A DNA stretch of 49,734 bases from an uncultured Clostridia bacterium (GTDB lineage Bacteria > Bacillota > Clostridia > Christensenellales > Borkfalkiaceae): positions 1-49,734 of the forward strand of contig CANQPO010000006.1 in assembly GCA_947625695.1 (NCBI GenBank), written 5' to 3'. A program made the translations under genes and the position numbers. Below, one piece after another: positions 2-17,300 of the stretch. Every line of letters starts with the position of its first letter. Position 1 is the stretch's first letter. The notes beneath the pieces are model-generated. The model saw nothing but the letters and a program-made list of their open reading frames with translations, searched no databases and was not told where the DNA came from.

Positions 2-988
2 ATGAAGGGGCGGACGGGGTCCGCTTATGAAGCATTGATTTTGTATGCTCTTTACACTTCGGAGTGTATGCTGATTGTATGCTCGAACGAGGACTATTTG
101 CAGACGAAGTGGGTGAAGAACGAATACACTCGCTTTATAAACCTCATGCAAGAAAGCGGAAAGGAGCGGGATGCACTGACGTTTGTGTTCACGGGAAAGC
201 CCATTGAAAAACTTCCGAACGGAAAGAAAATCCAAGGGATCGACCTTTCAAAGCCCGATGCTTACTCCCGCATCACCGAATATGTAGAGAGTCATACACC
301 CGAGGCAAAGAAGAGGAGAAAAGAGGAAGCGGAAACAAAGCTTGCCGAAGAGGAAGCGCGCCGTAAAGCCTTTGAGGAACAGCAAAAAGAATTTGAAGAG
401 CGCAGTAGACAACTCATTGAAGAACAACAGAAACGGTTGATTGAATTACAGGAAAAGCTAAACGTTCTTACGTATAACCAAGAAAATAATTCGGCGGGCG
501 AGGCGCTCGCCAATGAAGATGAAATGTTTGATGTTATAATCAAACACTGCGGAAATGATAAGATTTCCGTTATTAAGGCGTTACGCAATGTTACCGGATT
601 GGGATTGGCGGAAGCTAAAAAAGCCGTTGAAAGTGGTGGAGCCGTATTTAGCGCAAATCAAACTATCGCAGCAAATGTTTGTCAAGTGCTTCGAAACGCC
701 GGAGCAGATGTAATAATACGAAGTAAAGGTTATGTTGAGACCGATATTGACCAAGGAAATACCTATGATGTGGTTTTGGACAATATAGGGCTCAACAAGA
801 TCACCGTGATAAAGATTCTGCGAAATTTTACTAATTTTGGTTTGGCTGAGGCTAAGAAAATCGTTGAACAAGGTGGGGTAATCTGTTCAATCGAGGACAA
901 ATACAAGGCTAACATGCTAGTTGATGAATTATGCCGTGCTGGCGCACGAGCAAGAATTAAACCGGTATACCACGGTACACGAAATTGA
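2..988 (+). CDS. TIR domain - coiled coil - two L7/L12 C-terminal-like domains (5' partial)
   Basis: The gene almost certainly begins before the window, since only the second half of a TIR domain is present (residues 1-75). It keeps the WVKNE segment with Glu41, which matches the catalytic glutamate position of NAD-cleaving TIR domains. Residues about 100-158 are a highly charged E/K/R/Q-rich coiled coil. Residues about 175-240 and 255-320 are two copies of the ribosomal protein L7/L12 C-terminal fold, recognised by KISVIKALRNVTGLGLAEAK and KITVIKILRNFTNFGLAEAK. In the ribosome this domain recruits translational GTPases. Here it is a fusion partner, so ribosome or GTPase contact is only inference. 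The gene is more AT-rich than the genes after it. It is followed by about 200 bases without an intact gene. The domain calls are strong; cellular function is not known. Confidence 0.8.
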   Translation: MKGRTGSAYEALILYALYTSECMLIVCSNEDYLQTKWVKNEYTRFINLMQESGKERDALTFVFTGKPIEKLPNGKKIQGIDLSKPDAYSRITEYVESHTPEAKKRRKEEAETKLAEEEARRKAFEEQQKEFEERSRQLIEEQQKRLIELQEKLNVLTYNQENNSAGEALANEDEMFDVIIKHCGNDKISVIKALRNVTGLGLAEAKKAVESGGAVFSANQTIAANVCQVLRNAGADVIIRSKGYVETDIDQGNTYDVVLDNIGLNKITVIKILRNFTNFGLAEAKKIVEQGGVICSIEDKYKANMLVDELCRAGARARIKPVYHGTRN

Positions 989-1052
989 CTTATGCAACTC
1001 TGTTATCAACAAGCAGTCGTGTAAAATGTCAAATCAGGAAAGTGGTGTATAG

Positions 1053-1180
1053 ATGGATAATATGACTTTGTTCAAATGTAAAAATTGCGGAGACTCCTAT
1101 AAAAACATCCAATTTACATTCATTTGATCTACTGCCACGGTAAATCGCGTAACCGTGGACCGAAAAGTAACTTAAAGAAG
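1053..1180 (+). pseudogene. Decayed zinc-ribbon fragment
   Basis: A start at 1053 gives a 24-residue peptide beginning MDNMTLFKCKNCGDSYKN, the first half of a zinc ribbon, stopping at 1127. In a shifted frame the sequence continues as HLIYCHGKSRNRGPKS, which resembles the second half of a zinc ribbon (compare VKCIYCGSVF at the start of the next gene). This suggests a frame-broken relic of another zinc-ribbon gene of the same set. The evidence is short motif similarity only. Confidence 0.35.
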
Positions 1181-1192
1181 GAGAATTAAAAA

Positions 1193-2041
1193 ATGCGCTG
1201 TAAATTATGTAATGGAGAATGCGAGCCGATCGGCGGCGGAAAAGTGAAATGTATCTATTGCGGGTCTGTCTTTTCCGAGAACGAGATCGCGGCAACGACA
1301 AGGAGTGCGTCGGCCAAATCGGACGGCGGCGCCAATGTCTTTGAGCAAAACATCAACGGGATCCTCGAGATCCGTTGGCAGAGCGGTCAATATGTCTATT
1401 CCGGCTCCGGCTTTTTGATCAATTCAAAAGGCTATGCGATCACGAATACACATGTCGTGACCTATGAGGACGGCAGGTCCTGCGGGAACGTTTCCGTAAA
1501 ACTGAACGGGCAGACCCTTTCTGCCTCCGTTGAGGTTTTGGGAGACAATCGGCACGGAAGCGGGAACGGTGTGGATCTTGCGCTCATCAAATTATCCCAT
1601 GTGCCGAGCGGAGCGAAAGTTCTGGAGTTCGAGGACTTTTCCAATGTCCGTATCGGCGAGCAGGTGTACGTCATCGGAAATTCTCTCGGCTATGGGACAT
1701 GTATCACAAGCGGGATCGTCAGCGATAAAGCGCGTCCCGTAAACGGCAAAATGCTGCTCATGACCGATTGCGCCGTAAACGGCGGGAACTCGGGCGGCCC
1801 CATCTTCAACGGAAAGGGCAAGGTGATCGGCGCGATCGTCTCGGGGATCGACCATGCGGAAGGGATGAACTTTGCAATTCCCGCGAATACGATCCAAGAG
1901 TTTATCGGACGGAACCGAAGAGGCATGACAAGTATGTTGGAATACAGAAAGGCCAAAGCGCCTTGCCCGAGATGCGGCTCATGGAACACAATTGTCGAAA
2001 ACAACATTTTTGTCTGCCTTGATTGCGACTTCGAAGGATAA
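1193..2041 (+). CDS. Trypsin-like serine protease flanked by two zinc ribbons
   Basis: 282 residues. An N-terminal zinc ribbon (Cys3, Cys6, Cys20, Cys23) leads to a trypsin-fold (S1/HtrA-type) protease core at about residues 50-240. The triad is visible: His87 in TNTHVV, Asp128 in VDLALIKL, Ser200 in GGNSGGP. A second zinc ribbon (Cys258, Cys261, Cys275, Cys278) closes the protein. There is no PDZ domain, signal peptide or membrane helix, so unlike typical HtrA proteins it is expected in the cytoplasm. A GAAGGAG ribosome binding site stands 8-9 bases before the ATG. It lies between two TIR-protein genes, and trypsin-like domains are known effectors in bacterial conflict systems. The family call is firm; the effector role is inference. 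Confidence 0.85.
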   Translation: MRCKLCNGECEPIGGGKVKCIYCGSVFSENEIAATTRSASAKSDGGANVFEQNINGILEIRWQSGQYVYSGSGFLINSKGYAITNTHVVTYEDGRSCGNVSVKLNGQTLSASVEVLGDNRHGSGNGVDLALIKLSHVPSGAKVLEFEDFSNVRIGEQVYVIGNSLGYGTCITSGIVSDKARPVNGKMLLMTDCAVNGGNSGGPIFNGKGKVIGAIVSGIDHAEGMNFAIPANTIQEFIGRNRRGMTSMLEYRKAKAPCPRCGSWNTIVENNIFVCLDCDFEG

Positions 2042-2118
2042 TTCTTTAAGCGACGAAGGTAGCGTCTGAGTGCAAAAGCGAACTACGAAAAAGAAATCAA
2101 TCGTCAAGGAAATACGTT

Positions 2119-4905
2119 ATGGAAGAATTTACAGGTCTCAAATGTCCCACCTGTCAAGGGGAACTGAAGCAAGGTCGGGGCGGGCTCCTCGAATGTCCCT
2201 ATTGCGGGAGCCATTATCCCCGCGATTTCAGTGAGAAAAAGGCAAACACGCTCACGAGCGATCTCGTTCAGAATCTGAACGCCGCGCAAAATCTGCACCG
2301 TCTCGGACATTTCGACGATGCGGCGGAGATGTATGACGCGATCACCCAGCAATACCCCAACGAGGCGTTTGCCTATTGGGGGGCATTCCTCTCCGAATAC
2401 GGCGTGCAATATACCGAGCAGAATAAAGTTTTCCGTCCGGTTTGCCACCGGATCAGCCGTATCCCCGCCACAGATTCTCAATATCTGAAAAAACTTTATC
2501 ACGTTTGTGCGAGCGAAGCGGACCGGCAGATCTATCGCCTCAAGGCGGACGCCGTTGAAAGTATCCGCTACAAAACATATGAAATCAGCCGCCGGCAAGA
2601 GCCTTACGACGTTTTCCTCTGCTGCGGCGGCGGAAGGAGGGAAGAGGAGTACGCGAATCTGCTTTCGCAGTCGTTGAAAGAGAAAGGGTACCGCGTATTC
2701 CTTCCGCGTAAGGCTGCGGAGGGCGACGACACGGCGGAAGCGTACATCTTCGCCGCCATTCAAAGCGCGGAGTGCATGCTCGTTTTTGCCGAGTCGGTCG
2801 AAAGCCTCAAAAACACCGAGAATACGTGGGGACGGTTCGTCACCCTGGAAGGGAAACGCATTCAGGTGCTTCACGACGGTCTGAACGAGAGCGAATTCCC
2901 GCTTAAACTTCGCAGAACGGTGCAACTGCAGGCGCCCATCGACCTGAAGTCGTTCTCCTGGCTTGAGACTGCCGTCGATTTTGTGAAAAAGCCCAAAACA
3001 GAGGGCGTTCATGCGGCGGGCACGGAGGAGTTCAAACGCCTTCTCGAAGAGCAATCCGCACAGCGCAGTCTCGAGATCGACCGCATCGTCAACAGCCTCA
3101 TGCCCGTGGCGAACAACATCGACGAGGCGTTCATCGCCATGCTCACCTACATCACGCAAGGCGATACTTCGCGGGCAGAAATGCTGCTCGTCAGCCAAAT
3201 CGTCCGTTTCAATAACGGCGAAAACGGAGAGACGGAGGACCTCGGCGGCGTAAAGCTCGTTGCGGAACTGTGCGTGGAGCTGCTCAAACTCAGCAAGTCG
3301 AACGAAACGGAACGCCGCAACATCATTGCAAAAATCGGCACCGTTTCTTCCCGCCTGAAGAGCGGCTATGCCCTCCTCTCCGAAAAGGAACGCCGTCTCT
3401 ATCCCATCGTTGCGAGCGTGAGAAGGGCCAACCTCCTCATCTATCTCGCAAAGGTATTCGGCGCCATCAAAGACGTCGAACGGCAGTGCTTTGTCCTCGA
3501 CCTTGTCGGCTATGACATGCTTGCCGACATGAAAGAGACGAACGAGATGGTCGCCATGCTCTTTTCACTCGGAAGAGAAAGAGAGGTGAGCGAAGTGCTG
3601 CGCAACTTCTCCCGTCTGGACGGCGATTATCTCCTTCCGCTCTTCCTGAAGAAGTTTACCCTCGGTTCGCAAAAGCAGTTTGTGCTCATGAGCATTGCGG
3701 ACAAGATCGTCTGCACCGAAAAGATCTCCGACGAACTCAATTCTTATCTTGCCGACTGCAAAGATCTCGGCACGGCGCTCGCCGTTGTCGATATCATGAC
3801 CGCAAACCGCATTTCGTTGACGGCCGGCGGGCTCGGCGGGATCCTCGGGACCGTAAAAGAGGCTGCGCAAGTCAAGCGGATCCTCGATAACTTCGGAAAA
3901 CGGGAACTCAGCGGGATCGAAGTGGACATGCTCGTCGGGATCGGAACCAACAGCGACGACGCGGCGAATGAAGTATTGCGTCATTTGCGGTTCGATTCGA
4001 GGGTCGAAAATATCGGCGCCCACAATATGCGGCTGTTCATTACAAAGTGCAACCTCGATAAGATCAAGACGCGTCTTTTTGAGTTCGTGCTTGATAAAAA
4101 ACTTGCGGAACAGCTTTTTATCGAAACGGTGCGCGGCAACGGCGTCGATCGGCTCTCTACAATCAATATTTTAAGCTCGTTTGTCCCCGTTGTGGATATC
4201 GACACATATGCGGATATGATGCTCGGCAAGGATCCGCTCAAAAAGGAGATCTTGCGGATCGTCGCTCCGAAAACGGGGAAATTTGCGAGCGCGAACAAAA
4301 CGATCGAGAGCTTCCTTGCGGGTAGCGACAGCGATGAGGACAAGCGAGAAATTTTTGCGATGTTCGGGGAGTTTCCCTTCAGCGAACAGGCGCTCGAAAA
4401 ATATCTTGCCATCCTTCCTGCCGAATACGATGACGACTATCGGAAATGGCTGTTCTTTTTCCTTGACAAATATCCCGGCAAGGCCCGCGAAACGTTTACC
4501 TTTCATTACGAGCGGCTGATTGGCGGGTATGAAGAGCTGCTTCCCAAGATCTTCGACCGCATCCAATACATGGACAACGAAGCGATCATCCGCTTTATGC
4601 TCGATTATCGCGGCACACAAGGCACCAAGGACGAGCTCTTCTGCCGCATGATCCGCTTTTTGGAGAAGCCGAAAAAAATCGAAGTCGAAGTGGCGGGTGC
4701 GACCTGCAATCTTCTGCAAGCCTACGTTTTGAGCGCGCGCGAACCCGCAAGCAGTACGCAGCGCGTTGTTGCGGCGCTCAAAAAAGAGGGACTCAAGCCC
4801 GATGAAAAGGTCATTTTCTACGGCAAAAAATGCAAGATGGCGGAGTTCCTTCAACTTGCGGAGATCAAGGAAGAGATCCGCAGTGAAATCGCGAAATATT
4901 TATAA
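2119..4905 (+). CDS. Zinc ribbon - TPR-like - TIR - helical-repeat protein
   Basis: 928 residues. A zinc ribbon (Cys9, Cys12, Cys26, Cys29) is followed by a TPR-like helix pair (about 45-90) and a TIR-like domain at about 160-300, starting EPYDVFLCCGGG and continuing EKGYRVFLPRK and AYIFAAIQSAECMLVF. This architecture is common in Firmicutes. Aligning ENTWGRFVTL here with KNEYTRFINL of the protein at 2-988 puts Thr236 where the catalytic glutamate should be, so this TIR is probably a binding or scaffold domain, not an NADase. Residues 300-928 are leucine-rich amphipathic helices resembling HEAT/TPR solenoids. No membrane helix is seen. The start is 77 bases after the protease gene, with AAGGAAA as ribosome binding site, and the next gene begins 33 bases after its end. 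Confidence 0.75.
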   Translation: MEEFTGLKCPTCQGELKQGRGGLLECPYCGSHYPRDFSEKKANTLTSDLVQNLNAAQNLHRLGHFDDAAEMYDAITQQYPNEAFAYWGAFLSEYGVQYTEQNKVFRPVCHRISRIPATDSQYLKKLYHVCASEADRQIYRLKADAVESIRYKTYEISRRQEPYDVFLCCGGGRREEEYANLLSQSLKEKGYRVFLPRKAAEGDDTAEAYIFAAIQSAECMLVFAESVESLKNTENTWGRFVTLEGKRIQVLHDGLNESEFPLKLRRTVQLQAPIDLKSFSWLETAVDFVKKPKTEGVHAAGTEEFKRLLEEQSAQRSLEIDRIVNSLMPVANNIDEAFIAMLTYITQGDTSRAEMLLVSQIVRFNNGENGETEDLGGVKLVAELCVELLKLSKSNETERRNIIAKIGTVSSRLKSGYALLSEKERRLYPIVASVRRANLLIYLAKVFGAIKDVERQCFVLDLVGYDMLADMKETNEMVAMLFSLGREREVSEVLRNFSRLDGDYLLPLFLKKFTLGSQKQFVLMSIADKIVCTEKISDELNSYLADCKDLGTALAVVDIMTANRISLTAGGLGGILGTVKEAAQVKRILDNFGKRELSGIEVDMLVGIGTNSDDAANEVLRHLRFDSRVENIGAHNMRLFITKCNLDKIKTRLFEFVLDKKLAEQLFIETVRGNGVDRLSTINILSSFVPVVDIDTYADMMLGKDPLKKEILRIVAPKTGKFASANKTIESFLAGSDSDEDKREIFAMFGEFPFSEQALEKYLAILPAEYDDDYRKWLFFFLDKYPGKARETFTFHYERLIGGYEELLPKIFDRIQYMDNEAIIRFMLDYRGTQGTKDELFCRMIRFLEKPKKIEVEVAGATCNLLQAYVLSAREPASSTQRVVAALKKEGLKPDEKVIFYGKKCKMAEFLQLAEIKEEIRSEIAKYL

Positions 4906-4938
4906 AAATATTTAAAAAATAAAAAAGGAGGTTAAAAC

Positions 4939-6729
4939 ATGTCATACGATGATGATTATGAAGCTCAACGACGGCTGGACGAAGAATACGACGATCTATG
5001 CGACAAATGCAATCAAGAGCTGGAACGTCAGGCAAGACTCGAAGCCGATCGCGGATATTGCCAGATAGACGTCCAGCGTTGCATCGACCTGTTGAGCGGA
5101 ATTACCAAAGTCGTAACGCCTCCGCTCAGCAAAACTGCGGCGGAGACGGACAAGGAGGCGACCGTTGCCCTTGACGCTTCTATGGCAATCGACGATCTTG
5201 TCGAAAAGTATAAGCTATTGAGCAACGGAAGCGCGGCGTCGATGAATCTGACGGGATATCGCGAGAAGTATTCCACCTATTACAAAATGTACAACGACTT
5301 GCGGCGGGTAACTCTCGGCTATGTCGTCGGGCTCGACAAAAACTTTTTGCAAACCGACATCCCCAGACAGAAGATGGAGAAGGCGTATCTCGCCAACACC
5401 GACTATTGGCTTGCCTATGCGGCAATGGCAGTCATGTTGTGGGCTTCGGACGAGCAAGAGGCGTGCAATCGTGCGGTATCCAAAGCCATGCAGATGGATG
5501 AGAGGAGGTCGGCGCTCTTCTTTCTTCTCGCGTTGCTCAGGTTCAACCGCGTGAATGCGGCGCGCGAATGGTACAGGCTCTACTTCAAATTGGTAGAGAC
5601 CGACGGGATCGGCGATGAGATCATTTACATTCTGCAAGTGCTCTTGAGCGGCGCGCTCGGCGCGGACGTCGCTTTTGCCAAGGCGGTGCAGGCAAAGGTG
5701 CGCGAATTGCTCAAGGAGACGGAGAGAGATATTACGGCGACCCACCGCGCGCAGGAGAGCGTTGATAACTATTTCGCCTCGTTTGTTTCGGTCACGGACA
5801 AGGAATTCCTCGATCTGAAACACATTTGCGGGGAATATGACGAAATGATCGCGCTCCTCTCCTGTGCGGAGAAAAACCGGATCCTGAAGGACTATTTCGA
5901 GTCGGTCATCAACAGCGACGCGCCCGTAAGCGACAGACTCTCCGAGCGCATCGAGGACGCTCTTTATGCCCTCATCTCCACTTACGATGTGAGCGAGCAG
6001 GAACTGCTTGATAAGATCACCTATGAAGAGATGGTCGTCAAGGCGCATGGCGATCTCCACGCCGCGCAAGAATCCTATCGTCAACTCATAGCAGACAGAA
6101 AGATGGATAAGAATCTGATCCTGATCATGATCAATTCCGTGCTCAATCTCAAGTCGAAAGCGGACATGCGGGTCAAAAAGTTCTCCCTTGACTTTATTCG
6201 GGGATATTGTCTCGAAGGGGCGGCGAAGTTTGCGCAGTATCGCAAACGGGAGAAAAAGGAGTATGCGCTTGAAGTGGACGGGTGTCCGCTCAAAGGCGAT
6301 GAGAACAGTTTCGAAGCCAATAAACCCAAACTGCAGACATATTACAACGGCTTGATCGCCTCGCGCATCAAGGGAGACAAAAAGGTAAAGACGCTTCGTC
6401 TTTCGGCGCTTCTCTGCGCGATCGTATGCGTGATCTTCGGCGTCGTCGGCAGCGTGGGCGTTGCGGTCCCCTTCCTCAGCGGAGGACAGGCGGCGGCGAT
6501 GTTTGTGCTTGTGGCGATCTTTCTTGCGGGAGTCGTGCTCTCGATCTATTTCGGGTATGCCGAAAAGCAGAAGATAATAAAGAGCTTCGAGTACCGTATT
6601 TCCCATGGCATGAAGATGCTTGAGGACGGCTTGAAAGATATGGCGGCATGGCGTGCAGCTTATCACGCAGCAGACGCCGTATATGATGAATTGATAAAAG
6701 TTTTGAAGGAGGAAGTAACGAATGGCTAG
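4939..6729 (+). CDS. Membrane-anchored helical protein, paralog A
   Basis: 596 residues; family not recognised. A charged helical N-terminus leads to a signature segment with DYWLAYAAMAVMLW, then EACNRAV, RRSALFFLLALLRFNR and AREWYRLYFK. The same signature is in the proteins at 6722 and 10446, so the three are paralogs. Two hydrophobic helices stand near the C-terminus (about residues 480-540, LRLSALLCAIVCVIFG and AAMFVLVAIFLAGVV), followed by about 60 residues of helix. The likely topology is a large cytoplasmic N-terminal domain, a two-helix hairpin in the membrane and a cytoplasmic tail. A strong AAAAAGGAGG site precedes the ATG. Its last 8 bases overlap the next gene, so the two are translationally coupled. 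Function unknown. Confidence 0.85.
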   Translation: MSYDDDYEAQRRLDEEYDDLCDKCNQELERQARLEADRGYCQIDVQRCIDLLSGITKVVTPPLSKTAAETDKEATVALDASMAIDDLVEKYKLLSNGSAASMNLTGYREKYSTYYKMYNDLRRVTLGYVVGLDKNFLQTDIPRQKMEKAYLANTDYWLAYAAMAVMLWASDEQEACNRAVSKAMQMDERRSALFFLLALLRFNRVNAAREWYRLYFKLVETDGIGDEIIYILQVLLSGALGADVAFAKAVQAKVRELLKETERDITATHRAQESVDNYFASFVSVTDKEFLDLKHICGEYDEMIALLSCAEKNRILKDYFESVINSDAPVSDRLSERIEDALYALISTYDVSEQELLDKITYEEMVVKAHGDLHAAQESYRQLIADRKMDKNLILIMINSVLNLKSKADMRVKKFSLDFIRGYCLEGAAKFAQYRKREKKEYALEVDGCPLKGDENSFEANKPKLQTYYNGLIASRIKGDKKVKTLRLSALLCAIVCVIFGVVGSVGVAVPFLSGGQAAAMFVLVAIFLAGVVLSIYFGYAEKQKIIKSFEYRISHGMKMLEDGLKDMAAWRAAYHAADAVYDELIKVLKEEVTNG

Positions 6730-8365
6730 TACGTCACAGCTCATCTCGGAATTACAATCGGTTTCGGACAAACTCGAAGCCAATGTAACTACGCAGGCTA
6801 AGAAGGTGCACGTCGCACTTGATAAGATCGATAAAACGGTCAACAACGTAGCGCAGAAGATCAAGGAACTTCGCAAGCAGATCATCAATGGGGAGGAAGA
6901 AAAGATCGCGCAAGAGAATCTGCTCCGCATCGAGCACCAGATCAACGACCAGCTCCAAAGCTATCAGGCGGTGCGTAAATCGGTGATCGGCGTTATCAAA
7001 GATTTTGATATCAACCTTGCACGCAACTCCACGATTTCCCAGCTCAGCGAAGAACTTTGGATGTCCTCGTCCCGCTATTGGCTCTCTTATGCGTTCATTG
7101 CGATCAGCGCATGGGTGCAGAACAACAAGGAAGTATGCAGAAACGCAGTAGAAGAAGGGCTCAGGTGCGACTTCAACAAGACTTCTCTCTTTTTCTGCCT
7201 TTTGAATTTGCGTTTCAATCGGAACCCTTCCGCACGCGAATGGCTTTACGAATATTTCAATTCGGTCGATTCGGAGAAGCCTCCCCGCGAAACGACGCTG
7301 ATCTTGCGCGCCTATCTTTGCGGCGTGTTCGGCAGAGATTCCCAGCTCGACAACTTTATCCGTACAACGGTCGAAAAGTGGGTCACCGAGCTCAATACGA
7401 ACAGCTCGATTTCCACCAACCTCGTAGAAGGATATAACAAGTATATTGCCGCGCTTCCTTCTTCCCAATCGACATTTTCGGCCAATATCCTCGAATCGCA
7501 CTGCGATACCCTTCCCGCAATGCGCGATTCGCTCGTTTCGGCGGGGCGGTATAAAACCGTTTTGCAGAAAGTTGCCAATCTCGACAGCGTTGAAGAGAAG
7601 TTCGCCGGAGGAGATTTCATCCGGCAGGTAGACGCTTTGCTCGACGATCTTGTCAACAACTACGACGAAGAGGAAATCCGCCTCAACAACGAGAAAAAAT
7701 TCTATCAGATCGTCATGGAACACAAAGGCGACGTGGAGGCGGCAAAGAAAGAATACGAAGTCTTTATGGACGCGAACAAAGAAGAACCCAATATCGGCGA
7801 GCAAATGTTCCGTTGGGTGGCTTATCCCGACAAGGGAGTTGATCTGAGCATCCAAAAATTTGCGGTTTCCAAGACGAAAGTCTGGTTTATAGATGCTATC
7901 AATACCTACGACCACACCGTGAAGGGTTCGGCGCCCGGCGTGTTCAAACTCTCCATCGACTTTTGGGAAGACACCACGGACGGGAAAGACCGTGAGGCGA
8001 TCAAGAAGGGGCTTCGCGATAAATTCGAGGCGGAAAAGTCGAAGTTGGTCGTCTTTACCAAGCCCAACGTTGTTCTCACGATCGTTGCGGCGATTTTGCT
8101 GGTGATCGGGATCGTGATCGGCGTCGCGGCGGCCTCCACCTCCTGGGGTTGGTACGGCTATCTTGTCGGCCCCATCGCGTTTGCGATCCTCGCCGCCGTC
8201 GTCGTGCTGAAAACGGTGCCTGCCCTCAAAGCATATCCTAAACGCATACATCAAGCGGAAAACGTTCTCGAAGCCTGTCTCGATGAGATCGACGGCTATC
8301 GCACGACGTTTGAAGAAGCTACGCAAATCAAGGACGAAGTCCTTAAGAAACTCGAATATATTTAA
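6722..8365 (+). CDS. Membrane-anchored helical protein, paralog B
   Basis: 547 residues. A predicted coiled coil occupies the first 90 residues. Then comes the trio signature: RYWLSYAFIAISAWVQ, EVCRNAVEEGL, KTSLFFCLLNLRFNRN and AREWLYEYFNSV. Two membrane helices lie near residues 455-505 (VVLTIVAAILLVIGIVIGVA and YLVGPIAFAILAAVVVLKTV), with a 45-residue charged helical tail. The start overlaps the end of paralog A and uses the GGAGGAAG site inside that gene. The signature resembles a TPR-type helix pair, but I cannot assign a named family. Three divergent copies around one ATPase suggest subunits of one membrane assembly, which is inference. Confidence 0.85.
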   Translation: MASTSQLISELQSVSDKLEANVTTQAKKVHVALDKIDKTVNNVAQKIKELRKQIINGEEEKIAQENLLRIEHQINDQLQSYQAVRKSVIGVIKDFDINLARNSTISQLSEELWMSSSRYWLSYAFIAISAWVQNNKEVCRNAVEEGLRCDFNKTSLFFCLLNLRFNRNPSAREWLYEYFNSVDSEKPPRETTLILRAYLCGVFGRDSQLDNFIRTTVEKWVTELNTNSSISTNLVEGYNKYIAALPSSQSTFSANILESHCDTLPAMRDSLVSAGRYKTVLQKVANLDSVEEKFAGGDFIRQVDALLDDLVNNYDEEEIRLNNEKKFYQIVMEHKGDVEAAKKEYEVFMDANKEEPNIGEQMFRWVAYPDKGVDLSIQKFAVSKTKVWFIDAINTYDHTVKGSAPGVFKLSIDFWEDTTDGKDREAIKKGLRDKFEAEKSKLVVFTKPNVVLTIVAAILLVIGIVIGVAAASTSWGWYGYLVGPIAFAILAAVVVLKTVPALKAYPKRIHQAENVLEACLDEIDGYRTTFEEATQIKDEVLKKLEYI

Positions 8366-8376
8366 GGAGAAATATC

Positions 8377-8547
8377 ATGGATGACAATAAAAATCAGGAA
8401 AGTGAATTCAATTTCGAAATGTTCTTGACGGATGACGGAGCGCAGGTGCTTTCCGACGATCGGCTGAAGGACCTGAAAAAGAATCTTCCGTCATGGGATA
8501 TCAAACCGCCGCAGAAATACGACGAGAAAAAGAAGACCGATGCGTAA
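8377..8547 (+). CDS. Small acidic protein, 56 residues
   Basis: An ATG at 8377 sits 6 bases after a TTAAGGAGA site and opens a 56-residue frame starting MDDNKNQESEFNFEMF and ending in a lysine-rich tail. It holds the short string LPSWDIKPP, which looks like a linear motif in a disordered protein. The stop overlaps the start of the next gene in ATGCGTAA, and the gene starts 11 bases after paralog B, so it fits the operon spacing exactly. There are no membrane helices and no recognised family. A role as an adaptor peptide is only a guess. Confidence 0.7.
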   Translation: MDDNKNQESEFNFEMFLTDDGAQVLSDDRLKDLKKNLPSWDIKPPQKYDEKKKTDA

Positions 8548-8962
8548 GGGCCCCGTCCATTACATAGATTGGACAGAAGCGCTTTCCCATCCGCTTGACG
8601 CGGAAAATTATACCTATCTCAAATGCGGGAAACTCAAGGAAAAAGAGCTTACCGCGAGTCTGTTCAACCGCATATCCGATTACGTCGTGGAAGAGTTCAA
8701 CCGCGGCGCGGAGGCGGTGAAGCGTGCGGAGAGGGGAGAGCTCATCTATGTGCTGGTAGCGTTTACCGCAAAACTCGCGCGTCTCTTCTTTTATCAAGGA
8801 TTGTCTTTTTTCGAGGAAAAGCATAAAGACGCGCTCACTTGTTCCGTGAAAGACGCGCTGAACGAGCTCATCAGGGCTTTGTCGGCGCGGGATTCCGAAC
8901 CGGACGCCGACTTGTTGTATGAAATCTGTATCTTGAAGCGCTTGGCAGGAGGAAGTTTATGA
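8540..8962 (+). CDS. Hypothetical helical protein, 140 residues
   Basis: A small, mostly alpha-helical soluble protein; family not recognised. It starts MRKGPVHYIDWTEALSHPLD and contains LVAFTAKLARLFFYQGLSFFEEK. The start overlaps the stop of the 56-residue gene and the end overlaps the start of the AAA+ gene by four bases (ATGA), so all three are translationally coupled. Such tight coupling to an ATPase gene suggests a partner or adaptor of that ATPase. This is inference from position only. Confidence 0.75.
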   Translation: MRKGPVHYIDWTEALSHPLDAENYTYLKCGKLKEKELTASLFNRISDYVVEEFNRGAEAVKRAERGELIYVLVAFTAKLARLFFYQGLSFFEEKHKDALTCSVKDALNELIRALSARDSEPDADLLYEICILKRLAGGSL

Positions 8963-10443
8963 GCAATTATTTACAGGTAGTAGACGAATTAACGGCGTGC
9001 CTTTCTTCGCGCGCGCCCTTTGTGATTCTCGAAACGGAAGAAAGAGATCGGGCGCAGGAAGCGTTGACCGCTTCTGCACGGGAACTCAATGTGGAGATCG
9101 AATTCTATACCGATTGCGGACAATTTGTCGAACTTCGCCGCGGCGAGAAGAAGATTGACGTTTCTGGCGACCCCTATGGGTATATCGGAGATTCGCTTAA
9201 AAAACGAAGTTCGCAGATCTTTGCGCTCGGCGATGTGCGGTTTCTTGACGGCGACAACTCTTTTTCCCGCAACTTGGTTGGATTGGTCCGCCTTGCGGCA
9301 GAGAGGACAAGCACGGTTGTGGTCGTCACGGCAGACCCCGTTTGGGCAGGGCTCAATAAACTCGGTTTCAGTTTGAAACTCGACTTGCCCGACCGGCAAG
9401 AGCGGGAAAAGATGCTGAAGCAGTTCATTACACGCCACCGCATCAAGAGTCTTTCCGAAGAAAAGCTCTCGCAGGCGGCGGCGATCCTCTCCGGCTACAC
9501 CGCGCTTCAGCTCGATACGGTGCTCAATTACACATTGAAACTGCGCGGCGGATTTACATACGATAATTTATGCGCCGTTGCAATGCAAAAGAACAAGCTC
9601 TTCGGCAAAGTTCCCTCCGTAACAAAGGTTCCCGTCGGCGACGTGCATGTCGCGGGGCTTGATGGAATCAAGGAATGGCTTGCGCAGAAGGAGAAGATCT
9701 TTTTTGCGGGAAAGGAAGAACTCGGGAAGAAACATCTTGCGCCGCCCAAAGGGGTGCTACTTGTGGGCGTCCCCGGTTGCGGGAAATCGCTGTCGGCGCG
9801 GCTCATCGCCAAGCAATGGCAGCTTCCGCTCTATCGTTTCGACATCGGCGCGCTGTTCGATAAATACGTCGGCGAGAGCGAAAAAAATATGCGCCTTGCC
9901 CTCGACTATATCGAAAGCGTCAGCCCGTGCGTCCTTTGGATCGACGAGATCGAAAAAGAGCTTTACACGGGCGGAGAGAGCGATACGGCAAAGCGGATCC
10001 TCGGCAGTTTCCTCTATTGGTTGCAGGAATATTCGGGAAGAGTTTTCCTTGTGGCGACGGCGAACGACATCTCCCAACTGCCGCCCGAATTGTTCCGGAA
10101 AGGCAGATTGAGCGAGATCTTTTTTGTCGATCTTCCCAACGAGAAAGAGCGGTGCGCCGCAATCGAACTTTATGCGGGGCTTTGTCTCTCTTTCCGCCTT
10201 ACCAAGGGCGAACTTGCGGAGCTCACTGCATGCAGCGAGGGATTCTCTTATGCCGATATCGAATCGGCGATCAAATCGGTCGCGGAACAGGAATTCATAA
10301 CGGAAAAGAACGAAAACTTTTCGGCATTAAAGCATGCGTTTGACGAGACGGTGAGTATTTACCGTTCGCAAACGGAATTGATTACAAGGACGAGGGAATG
10401 GGGCGAGCATAGCGCCGTTTCTGCGTCCGCAAAAAGGAGGTAA
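8959..10443 (+). CDS. Ycf46-like AAA+ ATPase
   Basis: 494 residues, the size of Ycf46-type AAA proteins of cyanobacteria and plastids. The N-terminal half (1-225) has the characteristic opening with [17 protein letters not shown] and no visible Walker motif. The AAA+ module spans about 230-470: Walker A GVPGCGKS (270-277), Walker B VLWIDE (325-330), sensor-1 ATAND (Asn369) and [10 protein letters not shown] with Arg380/Arg383 as likely arginine fingers. [10 protein letters not shown] is the usual pore-proximal segment. The fold is related to FtsH/Cdc48 ATPases but has no protease domain or membrane helix. The start overlaps the previous gene and has an AGGAGGAAG site. It is probably the energy-using core of the island. 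Family call is strong; substrate unknown. Confidence 0.88.
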
Positions 10444-10445
10444 AC

Positions 10446-12158
10446 ATGGCAACGCAAAGTATGATTGCGGCGGCAAAATCAAAATTGAATGAGATCAGAA
10501 CGGAAAATGCGCAGATCGAACGTGAGATCGGCGTGATGGTACAGGCAATTCGGAATGCGTGCACAAGCGCCACCGATGCTGGGAACAATACGCTCGAAAC
10601 GCTCGGAAACGGCGAGACAATGCTGCTTTCGGATGACAATACTCTGATTGGCGTTGAAGGTGTGCGGCAGGATATCCAACGGCGGTTCGACCTTTATAAA
10701 AATATCGAAGAAGCCTATAAGACGATCCGTCAGCTCAACAACAATTTGCACGATCAGCTGGGAAACGAAAAAGTCGTGCGCCGTATGGTCATGGCAATGG
10801 TAGACAACGAAGAAAAGACCTTTGTAACCGACGAGACGCTTTCCACGCAGGCGGAGAAACTCTATACCCAAACCCAATTCTTCTTTCTCACGTATATCAT
10901 GATGGATCTACAACTGAGGAGACAGGGGAAAACGGAGGCGGCGGACAGAGCGCGGAAGCAAGCCTTGGAAATGGATGCGCGTCAATCGGCTTGGGTGTAT
11001 TTTATGATCGCGCTCAAGCGGAAAAACGTGAATGAACAGCGCGAATGGTTCAGCAAGATCACCGCCCGCCCTCTTACGGGTACGGAGAAGACAAACTGTA
11101 AGATACTTACAATGCTCTCTTTGAAAGAGGACGAAGAGATCGCGTCGGATATCAAGAAGTATATTGGAATGGACAAACTCACTGCAATCGACAAAGACGA
11201 TGTCGTCGCCGAGATCCTTACGGGCTATCGTGGCGCAATGACGGTTGTGCCGCCTACATTCCAATATCTAAACCGCTATGTTTCGGAATACGGCGAATTG
11301 AACGAAGCGCTTCGCGGCGCGATGAATAACGAGTTGGTGGGCGCCTATGTCCAGCAGGTCTCTAAAGTCAAAGAGGAGAAAATGCGCGACAATATCATTA
11401 CGATGATGTTTGATACGATCATCGAATCCTGCCATTCTCCACAGGCGCAAAAGATCTTAAAAGAAATCGAGCACCAACAGCACATCATCGACGCCAAGGG
11501 CGTTGAAAAAGAGGCGACCGTGCTGGACGCAAAGCAAAAAGTCGCGGAGACCACCGAGGTCAACCTCGAAAACTGTCTTTACGAATGGCTCAACGATCAG
11601 GAGAATTATAACGGCAAACGAGAGATCTCACTGTTTGCCTATTCCAGACTCAAGCCTTGCTATAAGCGCGCCTATCGGCAGTACACCGAAGAATATCGCA
11701 AGAGATATCAGAAGAAGGTGAATGTCACCATTGATTCTTATACGACGCAGAGCACGCTTACAAGCAGCGCGGAAGAGGTGGTAAAAATCGAAGATTATTG
11801 CCGCCGCCGCTGCCAAGCGGAAAAGGAAAAGATAAAGGATCTCCCTTCGCTGCTCTTTATGATTTTCGGTGGTGTGTTGTTGCTCGCGGGGATCATTCTC
11901 AACTTTATTCCTGCGCTCGGTTCTGGTGGAGAACTTGCGTGTTTTCTTATCGGCATTATCGGCGGATGTGTGTTGGCGATCGTCGGCGTGGCAAAGCGAT
12001 ACGGGAACTATCGAAAACGGATCGCGGCAGAGGAAGGATGCGAACGGGAAATTGCCAAACTCTCCGAGCAAATGCAATATGTCATAAGCGATATGGAAGC
12101 ATATCGGGAGATGTACAAAACCTATGATGAAAAAGCGCTCGACGAAAACTTCTTTTGA
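10446..12158 (+). CDS. Membrane-anchored helical protein, paralog C
   Basis: 570 residues. It is the most diverged of the three paralogs, but keeps the layout: helical N-terminus, signature segment (FFFLTYIMMDLQLRRQ, AADRARKQALEMDARQSAW, NEQREWFSKI), a long helical middle, two membrane helices at about 470-525 (LLFMIFGGVLLLAGIILNF and LACFLIGIIGGCVLAIVGVA), and a helical tail. The start is two bases after the ATPase stop, with AAAAAGGAGG inside the ATPase gene. It is the last gene of the run and is followed by a terminator 27 bases later. Function unknown. Confidence 0.85.
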   Translation: MATQSMIAAAKSKLNEIRTENAQIEREIGVMVQAIRNACTSATDAGNNTLETLGNGETMLLSDDNTLIGVEGVRQDIQRRFDLYKNIEEAYKTIRQLNNNLHDQLGNEKVVRRMVMAMVDNEEKTFVTDETLSTQAEKLYTQTQFFFLTYIMMDLQLRRQGKTEAADRARKQALEMDARQSAWVYFMIALKRKNVNEQREWFSKITARPLTGTEKTNCKILTMLSLKEDEEIASDIKKYIGMDKLTAIDKDDVVAEILTGYRGAMTVVPPTFQYLNRYVSEYGELNEALRGAMNNELVGAYVQQVSKVKEEKMRDNIITMMFDTIIESCHSPQAQKILKEIEHQQHIIDAKGVEKEATVLDAKQKVAETTEVNLENCLYEWLNDQENYNGKREISLFAYSRLKPCYKRAYRQYTEEYRKRYQKKVNVTIDSYTTQSTLTSSAEEVVKIEDYCRRRCQAEKEKIKDLPSLLFMIFGGVLLLAGIILNFIPALGSGGELACFLIGIIGGCVLAIVGVAKRYGNYRKRIAAEEGCEREIAKLSEQMQYVISDMEAYREMYKTYDEKALDENFF

Positions 12159-12184
12159 TCACAGATAAAGAGAGCGCACATGTT

Positions 12185-12220
12185 AAAAACGGGCAATGGT
12201 GAAAACCACTGCCCGTTTTT
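12185..12220 (+). terminator. Rho-independent terminator of the island
   Basis: AAAACGGGCA pairs with TGCCCGTTTT; after an A-C mismatch TGGT pairs with ACCA around a GAAA loop, and the 3' side ends in a T run. It starts 27 bases after paralog C and marks the end of the operon. Confidence 0.9.
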
Positions 12221-12255
12221 ATATGGAAATCGGAGCCGGAGCGCGCAAAAAGGCG

Positions 12256-12480
12256 ATGTGCTATAATGGGGGCGGAATTCGTCCTGACGCAAAATAAAAT
12301 CGCATGTGCTATAATAGGAGCGGAATTCGTCCTGACGCAAATAAAATTGCATGTGCTATAATAGGGGCGGAATTCGTCCTGACGCCGAGGAGAAACTCAT
12401 GTGCTATAATAGGAGCGGAATTCGTCCTGACGTAAAATGAGGAATCTATGTGCTATATGAGGAACCTATGTGCTATAATA
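12256..12480 (+). repeat. Tandem repeat of extended -10 promoters with operator-like palindromes
   Basis: Six copies of ATGTGCTATAAT (the fifth imperfect) start at 12256, 12304, 12351, 12399, 12448 and 12468. The first four are in full units of 47-49 bases that also carry GGAGCGGAATTCGTCCTGAC or a close form. The TGC-TATAAT core is an extended -10 promoter. The GAATTC palindrome with GG and CC arms falls where transcription would start, which is a typical repressor site position. Copies 5 and 6 keep only the promoter part. There is no good -35 box at normal spacing, so promoter activity would rest on the extended -10. It lies directly before the gene at 12544. Confidence 0.7.
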
Positions 12481-12798: not shown

Positions 12799-13293
12799 AT
12801 GGACTCGCGCATTTTGTTTTTGGACTATGACGGCGTCGTCAACACGCCGATGTGGAACGAGAGGGGTACGAAAGTTTCCTACGGCTTCCCCGAGGATGGA
12901 AAAGTCAACAACTTTCAGGCGGTGCAGTGGGTCTCCGAGTTCTGCCAAAGATGCAAATTCGACATCGTTGTCACGAGTTCGTGGCGGGAAGAGAGAAATT
13001 ATCGGGAATGTTTGATCGAGGGCGGCTTGCGCAAAAATATCGCAATCGCGGGCGCACTTCCCATCGATGAGACCAAGTCGCGCGGGGAACTCATCCGCGA
13101 CTATCTTCTTTCGCACCCCGAAATCAAATACTACATCATCGCGGACGACGAGGAGGACCTGCTTCCCGAGCAACTGCCGCACCTTGTAAAGACAAACCCG
13201 CTCTATGGCTTTTTAGAGCCCGAATACCACACCGCCGTCGCCCTCTACATGAAGCTGAAAAGCGGAAGCAACCCCAAAGGCCGGAAAATTTAA
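12799..13293 (+). CDS. HAD-superfamily phosphatase of the RNA-repair-associated (SAK) type
   Basis: 164 residues. HAD motif I is [11 protein letters not shown] (Asp9, Asp11), motif II is VVTSSWRE, and motif IV is [11 protein letters not shown]. The compact fold with SSWR and the acidic motif IV matches the HAD domain found in Swiss-army-knife RNA repair proteins (PF18143-like), which also exists as a stand-alone protein. Such domains are proposed to trim phosphate ends of nucleic acids; the activity here is inferred. No close ribosome binding site is seen, and GAGGAA at the end of the preceding fragment is about 21 bases away. A link to the nuclease fragment in front is possible. Confidence 0.75.
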
Positions 13294-13426
13294 TCGGATG
13301 ATTTTTCGGCAAGTCCTTCCGTTTTGGGGGGATTTTTATCTGTCACCTCTTTTTTGTTTTCAGGATATGATGATAACAGAACGTTTTGTTCTTTTAAGGA
13401 CAGAGCGACGAAGGAGGAAAAAATTT

Positions 13427-14035
13427 ATGTCTTACAAAGAACACTTCCTCGTACTTTTGCAGTGCAACTGCGGCTGCGGATGTAACTGCGGATGCGGCGG
13501 AAGCTCTTTCTACGTTCCCTCGTTCAGCGTGCGGCAGTATGTGCCTACGGGCTCGGGCACGGGCGTCACCGGCCCCACGGGTCCGACCGGTCCGACAGGC
13601 GCAACGGGCGCGACAGGTGCGACAGGTCCTCAGGGGGAAATCGGTCCTACGGGCCCCGTAGGCCCCACGGGGGAAGTCGGCGCGGTAGGCGCAACGGGCC
13701 CCCAAGGCGAAATCGGTCCTACGGGTCCTGTAGGCCCCACGGGGGAAGTCGGCGCGGTAGGCGCAACGGGCCCTCAAGGCGAAATCGGCCCCACCGGCCC
13801 CCAAGGCGAAATCGGTCCCACCGGTCCTGTAGGTCCCACCGGCCCTCAGGGTGAAATCGGTCCTACGGGTCCTCAGGGTGAAATCGGGCCTACGGGTGCG
13901 GATGCGGTCCTCACGCCCGCTGCGAACGTTGCGACGCTCGATGCCGGCGCGACGACGACGGAGATCGTCACGGCGTTCAACTCGCTGATCGACAATCTCA
14001 TCGCAGCCGGTCTGATGGAAGGTCCCGCGGCATAA
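13427..14035 (+). CDS. Collagen-like GXY-repeat protein with Cys-rich N-terminus
   Basis: 202 residues. The start at 13427 is chosen because AAGGAGGAAA lies just ahead; longer reading frames upstream have no site. A short leader contains a Cys/Gly block (CNCGCGCNCGCGG). Residues about 46-157 are uninterrupted Gly-X-Y triplets built from [12 protein letters not shown] and GEVGAVGAT blocks, so a collagen-like triple helix is expected. The 45-residue C-terminus ends [19 protein letters not shown], a typical trimerising end of such proteins in spore formers. BclA-like exosporium or surface filament is the nearest known role. No signal peptide is seen, as in exosporium proteins. The near-identical triplet blocks can recombine and change length. 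Confidence 0.85.
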
Positions 14036-14353: not shown

Positions 14354-17300
14354 ATGAAACATTTCAGGAAAGCAATGCTTCTTATTCTCGCGCTCACAAT
14401 GACGCTTGCGCTCGGCATCTTTGCCGCGGCATGCGGAGGCGGGAACAAGGTCATGCTCACGTTCACCGAGGGGGGGGGTGAGCCCTATACGTTGGAGGCG
14501 GAGGCGGGAAGCACGGTGACGCCGCCCGTTCCCGACGCGCGCGACGGCTATCTCTTCGACGGATGGTTTGCCTCGTCCGATTTCTCGGGCGGCGCGCTCG
14601 GTTCGAGCCTGACCGCACCCGAAACGGATACGACATATTACGGAAAGTGGTCGAAGGCTTATGTTCTCACACTGGCGCTGGACGGCGGCACGATGAGCGG
14701 CGAAAAGACCGTCCTTCTCAGGGAGGGCGCAAGCCTTTCGGACGCCGTGGCGGAATATCTGCCCACAAAGGACGGGTTCACGTTCGGCTCATGGCTGCTC
14801 GACGGGAAGGAACTTACCGCAAGCGACAAAATGCCTGCAGGCGAACTTACGTTGACCGCGGGATGGAAGATCGGATACACGGTGCAAGTGTATTTGCAGA
14901 ATAAGACGGCGGACGGCTATGAGCTCTCCTCCGAGCTGAGCGTGGAAGGAAGCGGCTATGTCGGCGTCAAAACGACCCCCGCCGCGCCTTCCGTCACAGG
15001 CTTCCGCCTCACAAGCCATGAAAACGAGCTGACGGAGGCGGTATTGACGGAGACGGCGTCCTCCAACGTGTTCCGCTTCTACTTTGCCCGCGAGGAATAT
15101 TCCGTCGTCTTTGACGCCAATCTGCCCGAAGGAATTGAGGCGGAAGGGGAGGTCTCCGAGCTGACCGCGCTCTACGAGCAGGAAGTTACCATTCCCGAAA
15201 ACGGATTTTCCGCGGCGGGGCATCGGTTTGTGGGTTGGAGCACGCAGTGGACGGGCGCCGTTGAATATCGGCCAGGCGCGAGCCTCCCGCTCACGCAAGA
15301 CCTTGTGCTCTATGCCGTCTGGGACGTCGGTTGCACCGACCTCTGGGGCAGCAAAGACCTCATCTATTCTCTCAGCGACGAGCCGGGGAAGGCGATCCTC
15401 GAACGCTACGGCGAAGTCTTTGAGGGAACGATCGACGAAAACGGCGTCTTTGAGATCGCCGGCATGAGCGGCATGATCTACAACGGCTCCGTGTTCGCCT
15501 ACTACCGCGAGGACTATGCGGCGAAGTTCTACCTGCTCGACGGCTATTATCATGAGAAAGAGACCGAACTCATCGACAAGAATACGACGCTCACGCTCGA
15601 CGGCTATCTCAATGCCACGATCAATTCGGCGGACGGGTCGGTGACGGTCGGCGCCTACGGTTACGATACCGATGAGAAGTCCAACTATATCGCGACGGAG
15701 GACGGGACGACCATCTATTTCCGTCTCGGCAGCTATCAGAATACCGCGGTGTTCGGCATTCGCGGCGACGAGGCGGACGTCTACGACCAGTTCGTTCCGA
15801 TCGACGAGATCATAGGTGTGCCCGGAAGATGGACCGTTCTCCTCGACGGATACGGCACCGCGCTCCTCGGCGACGCGGCGGCAGAATCGGAAGAAGAGGT
15901 CCTCTACGAGGGCGTCTATTACTGCGAAGATTCCGGTTTCTTCGCGGGCGACGAGGAGATCAGATTCTACCATGTCTTTACCGCCGAAACAGGCGAATTG
16001 GTATTCCACAACTATCCCTTGACGTCGGGAGATGCGCTCGTCCTTAAAGACGGGCTCTCGGGCGATTACAAGGGCGAGATTGACGGGAAGGCGGTCACCG
16101 TCACGCTGAACGGGTTCGGACTTCTCGACGGCGCAACCATTGACGGCGATCCCGATTCCGCTTGTGGGTACTATACGACCGAGTCGGACGCATTCGGGAC
16201 CATTCTCTACCTTTTGACGGACGACGGAACGATCACGCTCCGTCTGACGGAAGCGGGGAAATTCGAAGAGTTCACCGTAAACTATACGGAGCTTCTCTAC
16301 CTGCGCACGGACGGGGTGGGGGCCAACCTGTTCTATCCCGCGATCCTGCTCTATGAGGAAAAGGACGCGATCCGCGCGGAGCTGTATATGCCCGATGACG
16401 ACGACAAAGTGCAACATGTTGCAACGGCGGATTGCACGGTCCTCAACGATATTCCCGGGCGCACATTCCTCAAGCTCACGCTCAAGCAGACATACGGCGG
16501 GGCGAAAGTCATCTTCTCCGGGTTCGAGGAGGAGTTTACATCGGCGTCCATTCTGCTCGATACCGAGTCGCTCGCCTATGACGTTTACAGCGTTCTCGAA
16601 TACAACGGCGAAAAATTGTACAACAAGTACACCGACAAGGACGGCTGCGTATTCTGGGAGAACCTCATCGACAGCGGCGTCAACGGGATCGGCAGTTTCT
16701 TGTTCGAAGGCGGACAGGTTCTCGAGGGCAGAGTCGTCAAAACCTATACGAACATTCAGGAATTCGGCTTCACGGCCATGGCGTTCAGATATTACAACGC
16801 GGAAGATCGTTTGGAGACCCGCTACTTCGCCCTTTGCGAGGACGGGACCTTCTTCGAGCTCGACGAAGAGCCCGACCACGCGATGCTCATGGACGAGTAC
16901 GGCACAATGAAACAGCAGGCGGGCGTCTACTTCGACGGGGCAGGCAATGCGTATTACTTTGCGGAGGGGACCGATCTCTATAATCATAAGTATATCGGCG
17001 GGCCCGTCCGCAAGACGGAGGAAAAGACCGCCTTGGGCGCGGAGATCTGGGTCATCGAGCCCGAAGAGGGGGAGCCCCTGCGGTTCGTCCTCGAGCAGGA
17101 GACGGAGAGCACCCTCCTCGCCTATGTCTACTATGAAGCGCCCGTCTCGCTCAAGGGGGAGAACGGCTCCTTTACGGCGGACGGCTACAACTACATGGCG
17201 TCCTTTGTGAGCGCGGATGGGATCAGCTTTTCGGGACTCTATCACATGCTCAACCCCGAAGATTGCTCAATCTCCGACGAATACAAGTGCGCCTATGTCA

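Follow-up and report, generated by a model that had tools for sequence, protein, structure and literature searches.

A conserved gene set encoding predicted membrane-hairpin proteins and an AAA+ ATPase in Clostridia, with TIR and protease genes as optional neighbours

The gene run at the start of the window

We analysed a stretch of 49,734 nucleotides, hereafter the window, from an uncultured bacterium of the Clostridia (family Borkfalkiaceae); it corresponds to bases 1-49734 of contig C6 (CANQPO010000006.1) of a genome of 1.89 Mb in 93 contigs that is 82% complete. The window opens with a run of co-directional genes on the + strand (2-12158), which an initial annotation had read as one candidate system combining a TIR-L7/L12 fusion, a protease, a zinc-ribbon TIR scaffold, three paralogous two-helix membrane proteins, two small genes and an ATPase, closed by a terminator. 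All of these genes are present in this orientation. The run is nevertheless two things and not one unit, namely a core of six genes in the order M1-M2-s1-s2-AAA-M3 (4939-12158) and, in front of it, the probable end of a different module, termed module A below.

M1 (4939-6729), M2 (6722-8365) and M3 (10446-12158) encode helical proteins that share homology along most of their sequence (BLASTP E values of 1e-34, 2e-13 and 6e-17), confirming the paralogous trio. By simple hydropathy, on which the membrane assignment rests, each ends in a pair of hydrophobic stretches that may form a membrane hairpin, with one further, weaker stretch in M1. Between M2 and M3 lie s1 (8377-8547), an acidic protein of 56 residues with a conserved tail (LPSWDIKPP in the window), s2 (8540-8962; 140 residues, no known family) and the AAA+ ATPase (8959-10443). 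The ATPase matches the AAA model with 95.8 bits (cut-off 21.2) and its Walker A (GVPGCGKS, 270), Walker B (LWIDEIEK, 326) and ATAND (366) motifs are intact, while its N-terminal half has no match in Pfam. From M1 to M3 the genes are separated by gaps of -8, 11, -8, -4 and 2 nt, and gaps of 33, 77 and 204 nt precede M1, the scaffold gene and the protease gene, respectively. The closing terminator is found as a predicted Rho-independent hairpin on the + strand (12184-12221, -23.5 kcal/mol by folding); a simple terminator and promoter scan did not list this hairpin, and in that scan terminators and promoters were no commoner than in shuffled sequences.

The trio and the two small genes have no model at curated cut-off in PADLOC 2023, Pfam or NCBIfam. 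Searches with the M family returned only weak matches below cut-off or models for coiled coils and transmembrane segments, and comparison of M with the PDB gave no meaningful match (best 0.095, to keratin).

Three genes and a gene remnant precede the core, all on the + strand. The scaffold gene (2119-4905) encodes 928 residues comprising a zinc ribbon, TPR repeats, a degenerate TIR domain and a long helical region. The initial annotation had called it a TIR scaffold; a TIR domain is indeed there, but it is weak (23.5 bits, below the cut-off of 28) and the Glu of its W-x-x-N-E motif, which we take to be the catalytic residue of TIR domains, is replaced by Thr. The zinc-ribbon HtrA/trypsin-like protease (1193-2041), assigned to module A, reaches 93.3 bits with Trypsin_2 (cut-off 27.6), contains four CxxC motifs and intact His, Asp and Ser motifs, and no hydrophobic segment was found in it. 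The TIR-L7/L12 protein (2-988) combines TIR_2 (32.9 bits, cut-off 28) with two L7/L12 C-terminal domains (95.3 bits, cut-off 25.9) and keeps the Glu in WVKNEY; it probably lies near the end of module A. Contig C6 begins with the window, inside this gene, which lacks its 5' half and its real start. The domain assignments made earlier for the fusion and the protease, and that of AAA+ for the candidate Ycf46-like ATPase, hold above cut-off. Between fusion and protease lies the remnant of a zinc-ribbon gene, its first 24 codons followed by a stop (1053-1127), within a segment (1018-1130) that is 89.6% identical to the spacer preceding a tandem AAA gene on contig C41 of the same genome.

Conservation of the core and its smaller forms

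An M2 alignment was used to scan the GTDB species genomes and yielded 64 core loci. The scan finds M2-bearing loci by design and undercounts distant forms because it requires short peptide patterns. Genes were called with our own codon-based script in place of a standard annotator and then assigned by profiles. The exact order M1-M2-s1-s2-AAA-M3 occurs in 55 of the 64 loci, the number being 55 and not 59 because the M3 profile hit the M1 gene at seven of them. Among the nine loci that lack the exact order, three (L050, L066, L072) end within 250 nt of the end of the stretch, on the short contig L053 the strict profile left M3 unassigned, in L084 neither s2 nor AAA was found despite 1.75 kb of following sequence, and in the remaining four the M3 profile landed on the M1 gene. 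Hosts are Clostridia, Bifidobacterium, Eggerthellaceae and one Anaeroplasma, and in a quick tree the five copies from Actinomycetota form one clade within Bacillota.

The s1 tail LPxW[S/N/D][L/I]xP[P/T] is found in all 60 copies (59 loci and the window), partly by construction as the copies were found by similarity, and in 54 of them the Trp stands at position 11 counted from the C-terminal end; the motif occurs in none of the other 895 proteins called in the 64 loci. The core itself is rare. Among 101 related genomes M was detected in five, the window's own included, one of these matches (G021) being merely a stretch of 86 residues and three of the five being of the type associated with an SPFH gene. 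The core ATPase is present in 5 of 396 genomes of the order, again counting the own genome and a partial copy in another context (G199), and the M2 profile matched 2 of 398 genomes of the phylum at E<=1e-60, one of them the window's own.

A five-gene form of the core consists of M, s1, s2, AAA and a protein X of about 160 residues. It is complete as cargo of the Streptococcus satellite phage Javan368, on plasmids of Comamonas antarctica (stretch L104, 7480-12015) and Komagataeibacter nataicola, both Pseudomonadota, and in a record of Fusobacterium vincentii. It is likewise complete on an IMG/VR contig (L106, 7995-12531) with adjoining recombinase-like genes. In G638 an ATPase frame of reduced length comes after X, M, s1 and s2. 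The M profiles of the six-gene and five-gene forms align over 519 columns (hhalign, 100%). Beside the operon on the IMG/VR contig we noted by eye an SRA/HNH-nuclease-like gene (12873-13628) and three serine-recombinase-like frames (14769-17715).

The ATPase of the satellite matches PHROG phrog_8638, a family of unknown function, over its full length (1.3e-105); the three other satellite proteins scanned have no strong match in PHROG. At E<=1e-20 this ATPase has relatives in 93 phage records, counting its own; in 45 of these the match covers at least 80% of the query, and among the matches listed those from Pseudomonas and Mycobacterium phages are about 30% identical to it.

A third form occurs in three relatives (L012-L014), where M is accompanied by an SPFH protein, a transmembrane/coiled-coil protein and a zinc-ribbon helical protein. 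No match to the window ATPase was found within the stretches covered, of which that of L013 stops about 0.5 kb past M, and an s1-like protein was read in L012 and L014. Since this form keeps M and an s1-like protein without an AAA match, the s1 tail may meet M or SPFH and not the ATPase alone.

The reading as one system stands for the conserved trio, small genes and ATPase, which no curated model for trio or small genes covers, but not for the TIR and protease genes, which fall outside the defining set.

TIR and protease genes and module A

If TIR and protease were obligate parts of a single system with the AAA+ ATPase, as the initial annotation implied, they should accompany the core. The co-directional run in the window would fit this, as would a second genome (G289) in which core, TIR and protease also share one contig. 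The counts contradict it. In a six-frame search with a home-made profile, one of whose three seed rows was empty, TIR was detected in 5 of the 64 core loci (L026, L027, L028, L061 and L065), and the window protease in none, the one on the L061 contig lying just outside the searched stretch. Among the 101 relatives the protease occurs in 8, the TIR part of the TIR-L7/L12 protein in 11, often in many copies, and M in 5; M and protease are found together only in the window's own genome (G000), and M and TIR only there and in G046. We rejected the single-system reading on these grounds and consider it very improbable. Because TIR and protease are this infrequent beside the core and mostly occur without M among the relatives, they are optional neighbours outside the defining set, and their co-occurrence with the trio-ATPase loci, which the initial annotation proposed to count, is low.

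In a small clade comprising the window, L026, L027 and L028 the TIR domain lies within the scaffold. The window scaffold clusters with c3, a scaffold of about 664 residues that is found in typical core loci and lacks TIR. In this clade the Glu of W-x-x-N-E is replaced by Thr in the window, Val in L026 and L027 and Ile in L028, and the scaffold TIR of the window is, judged by this motif, without its presumed catalytic residue. The residue is kept in the window's TIR-L7/L12 protein and in the TIR proteins of L061, L065 and L023. A conserved Glu in the TIR-L7/L12 protein is shared with Thoeris and other TIR NADase systems, from which the present loci differ in that TIR is optional. For the L7/L12 domain the nearest precedent in the literature searched is provided by the L12/ClpS insertions in vWA conflict proteins described in the accessible text of PMC7159879.

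The TIR-L7/L12 and protease genes probably end a second module A, which consists of genes for an SPFH-zinc-ribbon protein, a coiled-coil protein, E1, the Snf7-like E2 and an AAA ATPase. We read the protease neighbourhoods of six genomes, leaving aside two with weaker protease matches (G062, G083). In three (G012, G091, G289) the protease adjoins genes for an SPFH-zinc-ribbon protein, a short coiled-coil protein, E1, E2, a zinc-ribbon TIR protein and an AAA ATPase, and in the other three (G003, G026, G053) no module-A genes were seen beside it, although G003 and G053 have a match to the module-A AAA elsewhere, that of G053 being half-length with an internal stop. The module-A AAA (E<=1e-90) is present in 7 of the 101 relatives, five of which belong to the eight protease genomes, with several matches spanning half of the query. 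In G289 the core and module A are adjacent on one contig.

Contig C41 of the window's own genome ends in module A, from SPFH to the tandem AAA gene, and includes a complete zinc-ribbon TIR protein of 913 residues. Behind the module C41 still encodes the initial 73 residues of a further zinc-ribbon TIR gene before it breaks off, and the window start aligns to residue 204 of the C41 TIR protein. On the simplest reading of these alignments C41 would precede the window, about 130 codons having been lost in the assembly; no end overlap between the two contigs was found to prove the junction. Zinc-ribbon TIR genes are multiplied in the genus, with 5 to 9 matches per genome in G003, G012, G014 and G046, a multiplication that may also break assemblies.

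E2 is the Snf7-like component: the Snf7 model is matched by 5 of 19 members with a best E value of 2.8e-8, the first member scoring 18.6 bits (cut-off 27.3), and comparison with chains of the endosomal sorting complexes required for transport (ESCRT) gave CHMP2A at E 0.12 with a single sequence and no match with a profile. The module-A ATPase of G289 is a strong AAA match whose nearest solved chains are Cdc48/VCP and which has a Vps4_C match near the cut-off (20.3 bits against 21.3, in L023), and an MIT domain was recognised by eye only, not being among the matches listed. E2 occurs in 28 of 297 genomes of the order, and within 1.5 kb of 20 examined copies we found E1 (18), AAA (17), SPFH (13) and TIR (3).

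Module A and the core share the SPFH component, as the module-A SPFH is homologous to the SPFH found beside M (3e-25). E2 was matched in L061 and in none of the other 63 core loci. BLAST did not connect the coiled-coil protein of module A in G012 with its counterpart in L014, although the L023 copy weakly matches that of L083 (5.8e-4). A relation between M and E1 of module A was considered and dropped, since the M2 and E1 profiles did not match. In the window's own genome a gene for 149 residues (stretch L133, 12119-12568) lies within module A between E2 and the TIR gene and has no match to the module genes of G012.

Module A resembles archaeal ESCRT/Vps4 systems in combining an SPFH-zinc-ribbon protein, a candidate Snf7-like protein and a candidate Cdc48/Vps4-like AAA ATPase, and SPFH-zinc-ribbon proteins are linked with archaeal ESCRT in the part of PMC10936438 available to us. 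It differs in being bacterial and in carrying TIR and protease as add-ons, and its E2 is matched in only one of the 64 core loci. The same portion of PMC10936438 states that many ESCRT components have no identifiable bacterial homologues and counts PspA/Vipp1 in the ESCRT-III family, and the accessible sections of PMC11237479 report that Vps4-like ATPases moved to bacteria, with snf7 being replaced by an unrelated TPR/6TM gene. A bacterial set of SPFH, Snf7-like and Cdc48/Vps4-like AAA proteins with TIR and protease add-ons would bear on the existence and role of ESCRT-like machines beyond archaea and eukaryotes.

Neighbours of the core and its proposed role

Upstream of the core the 64 loci contain recurrent gene clusters, some loci having only short upstream sequence. 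An SPFH-zinc-ribbon protein is present in 41, a transmembrane/coiled-coil protein in 45 and the zinc-ribbon helical scaffold c3 in 53, and subsets of loci contain the HerA-like ATPase c8 (16), the acidic protein c7 with its varied C-termini (19), and c9 (17). The scanned SPFH partners match Band_7_1 above cut-off; in the window's genome the SPFH gene lies on C41 and none is in the window. c7 and c8 are located between c3 and M1, and neither is present in the window stretch. Four of ten c7 proteins scanned over their whole length (L030, L033, L077, L088) reach the cut-off for Papain fold toxin 1/Gln_amidase, each with an acidic N-terminus, the Gln_amidase domain at the C-terminus and a HerA-like ATPase gene adjoining; three of five c7 tails contain a RelA_SpoT-like domain below cut-off, and other c7 ends are weakly C39-like or metallopeptidase-like.

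Among the models searched, those of IetA give the best match to the AAA domain of the ATPase in the core (PADLOC, 2.6e-31; NCBIfam NF042959, 92.2 bits). IetA is the AAA+ ATPase of the anti-phage system IetAS, in which it is paired with the subtilase protease IetS, and in the window, too, a serine protease lies near the core. However, the 92.2 bits contrast with a cut-off of 510 for NF042959 and the match covers the AAA domain only, and the window protease is trypsin/HtrA-like. Trypsin_2 and Trypsin are the only peptidase domains reaching cut-off in the window proteins; no subtilisin-like protease was found there at cut-off, and no subtilase search was made in the 64 other loci. To our knowledge M, s1 and s2 are not part of IetAS.

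The core may be a mobile, membrane-anchored AAA+ machine for biological conflict, most likely directed against phages or other invaders, into which killing enzymes are plugged, a reading we favour tentatively and rate a little short of probable. We arrive at it because of the mobile carriers, the very sparse distribution and the varied enzyme genes. What the sequences offer it is the gene set and its order, the apparent hairpin paralogues, an ATPase that looks active, a nearly fixed s1 tail and alternative enzyme genes in subsets of loci. The M proteins would come together at the membrane to serve as platform and sensor, s1 would tether through the docking of its tail on M or SPFH, and s2 would adapt the AAA ring; upon a trigger the ATPase would remodel the platform and release or feed an effector. 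In the window's genome the partner effectors might be a NAD-cleaving TIR protein and a cytosolic HtrA-like protease from the adjoining SPFH/Snf7-like/AAA module.

Several observations weigh against a role in conflict. Judged by eye, without family scan or control, most of the 155 proteins flanking the 64 loci have metabolic or housekeeping functions; these flanks gave no signal of a defence island and contain few recombinases (L028, L035, L051). c7 was not seen in 45 of the 64 loci and TIR not in 59, upstream DNA being short in some. Scans of viral contigs with the window/SPFH-type and Clostridia-type M alignments gave no match, a third scan matching one contig. Recent horizontal transfer between the window and G115 was not supported, since the AAA identity (72%) is lower than that of partial RpoB (83%). 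The SPFH and coiled-coil partners fit envelope stress equally well. The defence role proposed earlier is thus partly supported: the phage-satellite copy and the genes with toxin domains at some of the loci are in its favour, while the ordinary flanks and the SPFH/ESCRT-like partners are also compatible with membrane remodelling under envelope stress.

In that alternative, which we regard as possible though on balance doubtful, the machine would parallel PspA/ydjFGHI and ESCRT, with an SPFH microdomain, M or a Snf7-like protein as scaffold and an AAA ring that recycles it, TIR, protease and toxins being incidental. The frequency of SPFH-zinc-ribbon (41/64) and transmembrane/coiled-coil genes (45/64) argues for it, as do the ordinary flanks, the form in L012-L014 that joins M to SPFH, coiled-coil and zinc-ribbon genes with no AAA match in the stretches covered, and the Snf7-like (5/19 members, best 2.8e-8) and Cdc48/Vps4-like proteins of module A. 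PspA-SPFH-zinc-ribbon and Vps4 contexts are also published: as far as its accessible text goes, PMC11237479 describes a PspA-band-7-zinc-ribbon operon in Firmicutes, and like the PspA/ydjFGHI operons there the core loci join SPFH and a zinc-ribbon protein with membrane partners. They differ in the AAA ring, the M trio and the s1 tail, and in the same text the core set was not seen. The very sparse distribution and the toxin-domain genes speak against envelope stress, as does the lack of a PspA model match among the eight window genes and five L083 proteins scanned. Moreover, no SPFH is annotated or was recognised by eye beside the five genes in the satellite and plasmid stretches. The initial annotation had itself named as counter-evidence homologs of the trio and ATPase in a known housekeeping pathway, with TIR and protease missing from most related loci; the latter is what we observed, but no known housekeeping pathway was found and the distribution is sparse.

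The positions of c7 and c8 raise a further alternative, namely a delivery or secretion apparatus in which the HerA-like c8, the membrane trio and the AAA ATPase move c7 toxins out of the cell or into a rival. HerA_C lies above and DUF87 below cut-off in the one c8 scanned, and the c7 proteins resemble polymorphic toxins (PMC3482391, accessible part) in their acidic N-terminal part and differing C-terminal enzyme domains, a known toxin domain being found in 4 of 10. Yet c7 is limited to 19 of the 64 loci, and where 5 kb or more of sequence precedes the first M gene (45 loci) it is present in 12 and not seen in 33; Pfam revealed no known secretion domain in c7, and the core occurs without c7 and c8 in the window and, by annotation and eye, beside the plasmid and satellite copies. 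We therefore consider delivery quite improbable.

A bolder version of the conflict reading, which we think unlikely as a whole, would make M-s1-s2-AAA a new class of immune machine, in which a membrane platform is policed by an AAA+ ring through a tethered peptide of about 60 residues. It would be spread on plasmids and phage satellites and, in gut bacteria, be joined to the ESCRT-like module of SPFH, Snf7 and AAA proteins and to TIR, protease, deamidase or RelA/SpoT-like effectors that can be exchanged for one another. Should the core be an immune or a membrane-repair machine, an AAA ring would act on membrane-hairpin proteins via a tiny tailed adaptor, a mechanism that no functional model in the searched libraries covers, in hosts that are common gut bacteria including Bifidobacterium. 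The literature searched, from which most subscription papers were outside, contains no description of the core. The compact five-gene copies make both questions, that of the core and that of ESCRT-like machines, testable in laboratory strains.

Downstream of the operon a tandem repeat follows the terminator directly (12256-12438; period 48, 3.8 copies, 86% match), with a unit that contains TGTGCTATAAT. Beside the operon lies a gene for a collagen-like GPTGP/GATGAT repeat protein (13298-14035), with DNA repeats of 27-99 nt at 13637-13897, and a protein of 1265 residues (14354-18151) has, by eye, a lipoprotein-like start and InlB-like repeats.

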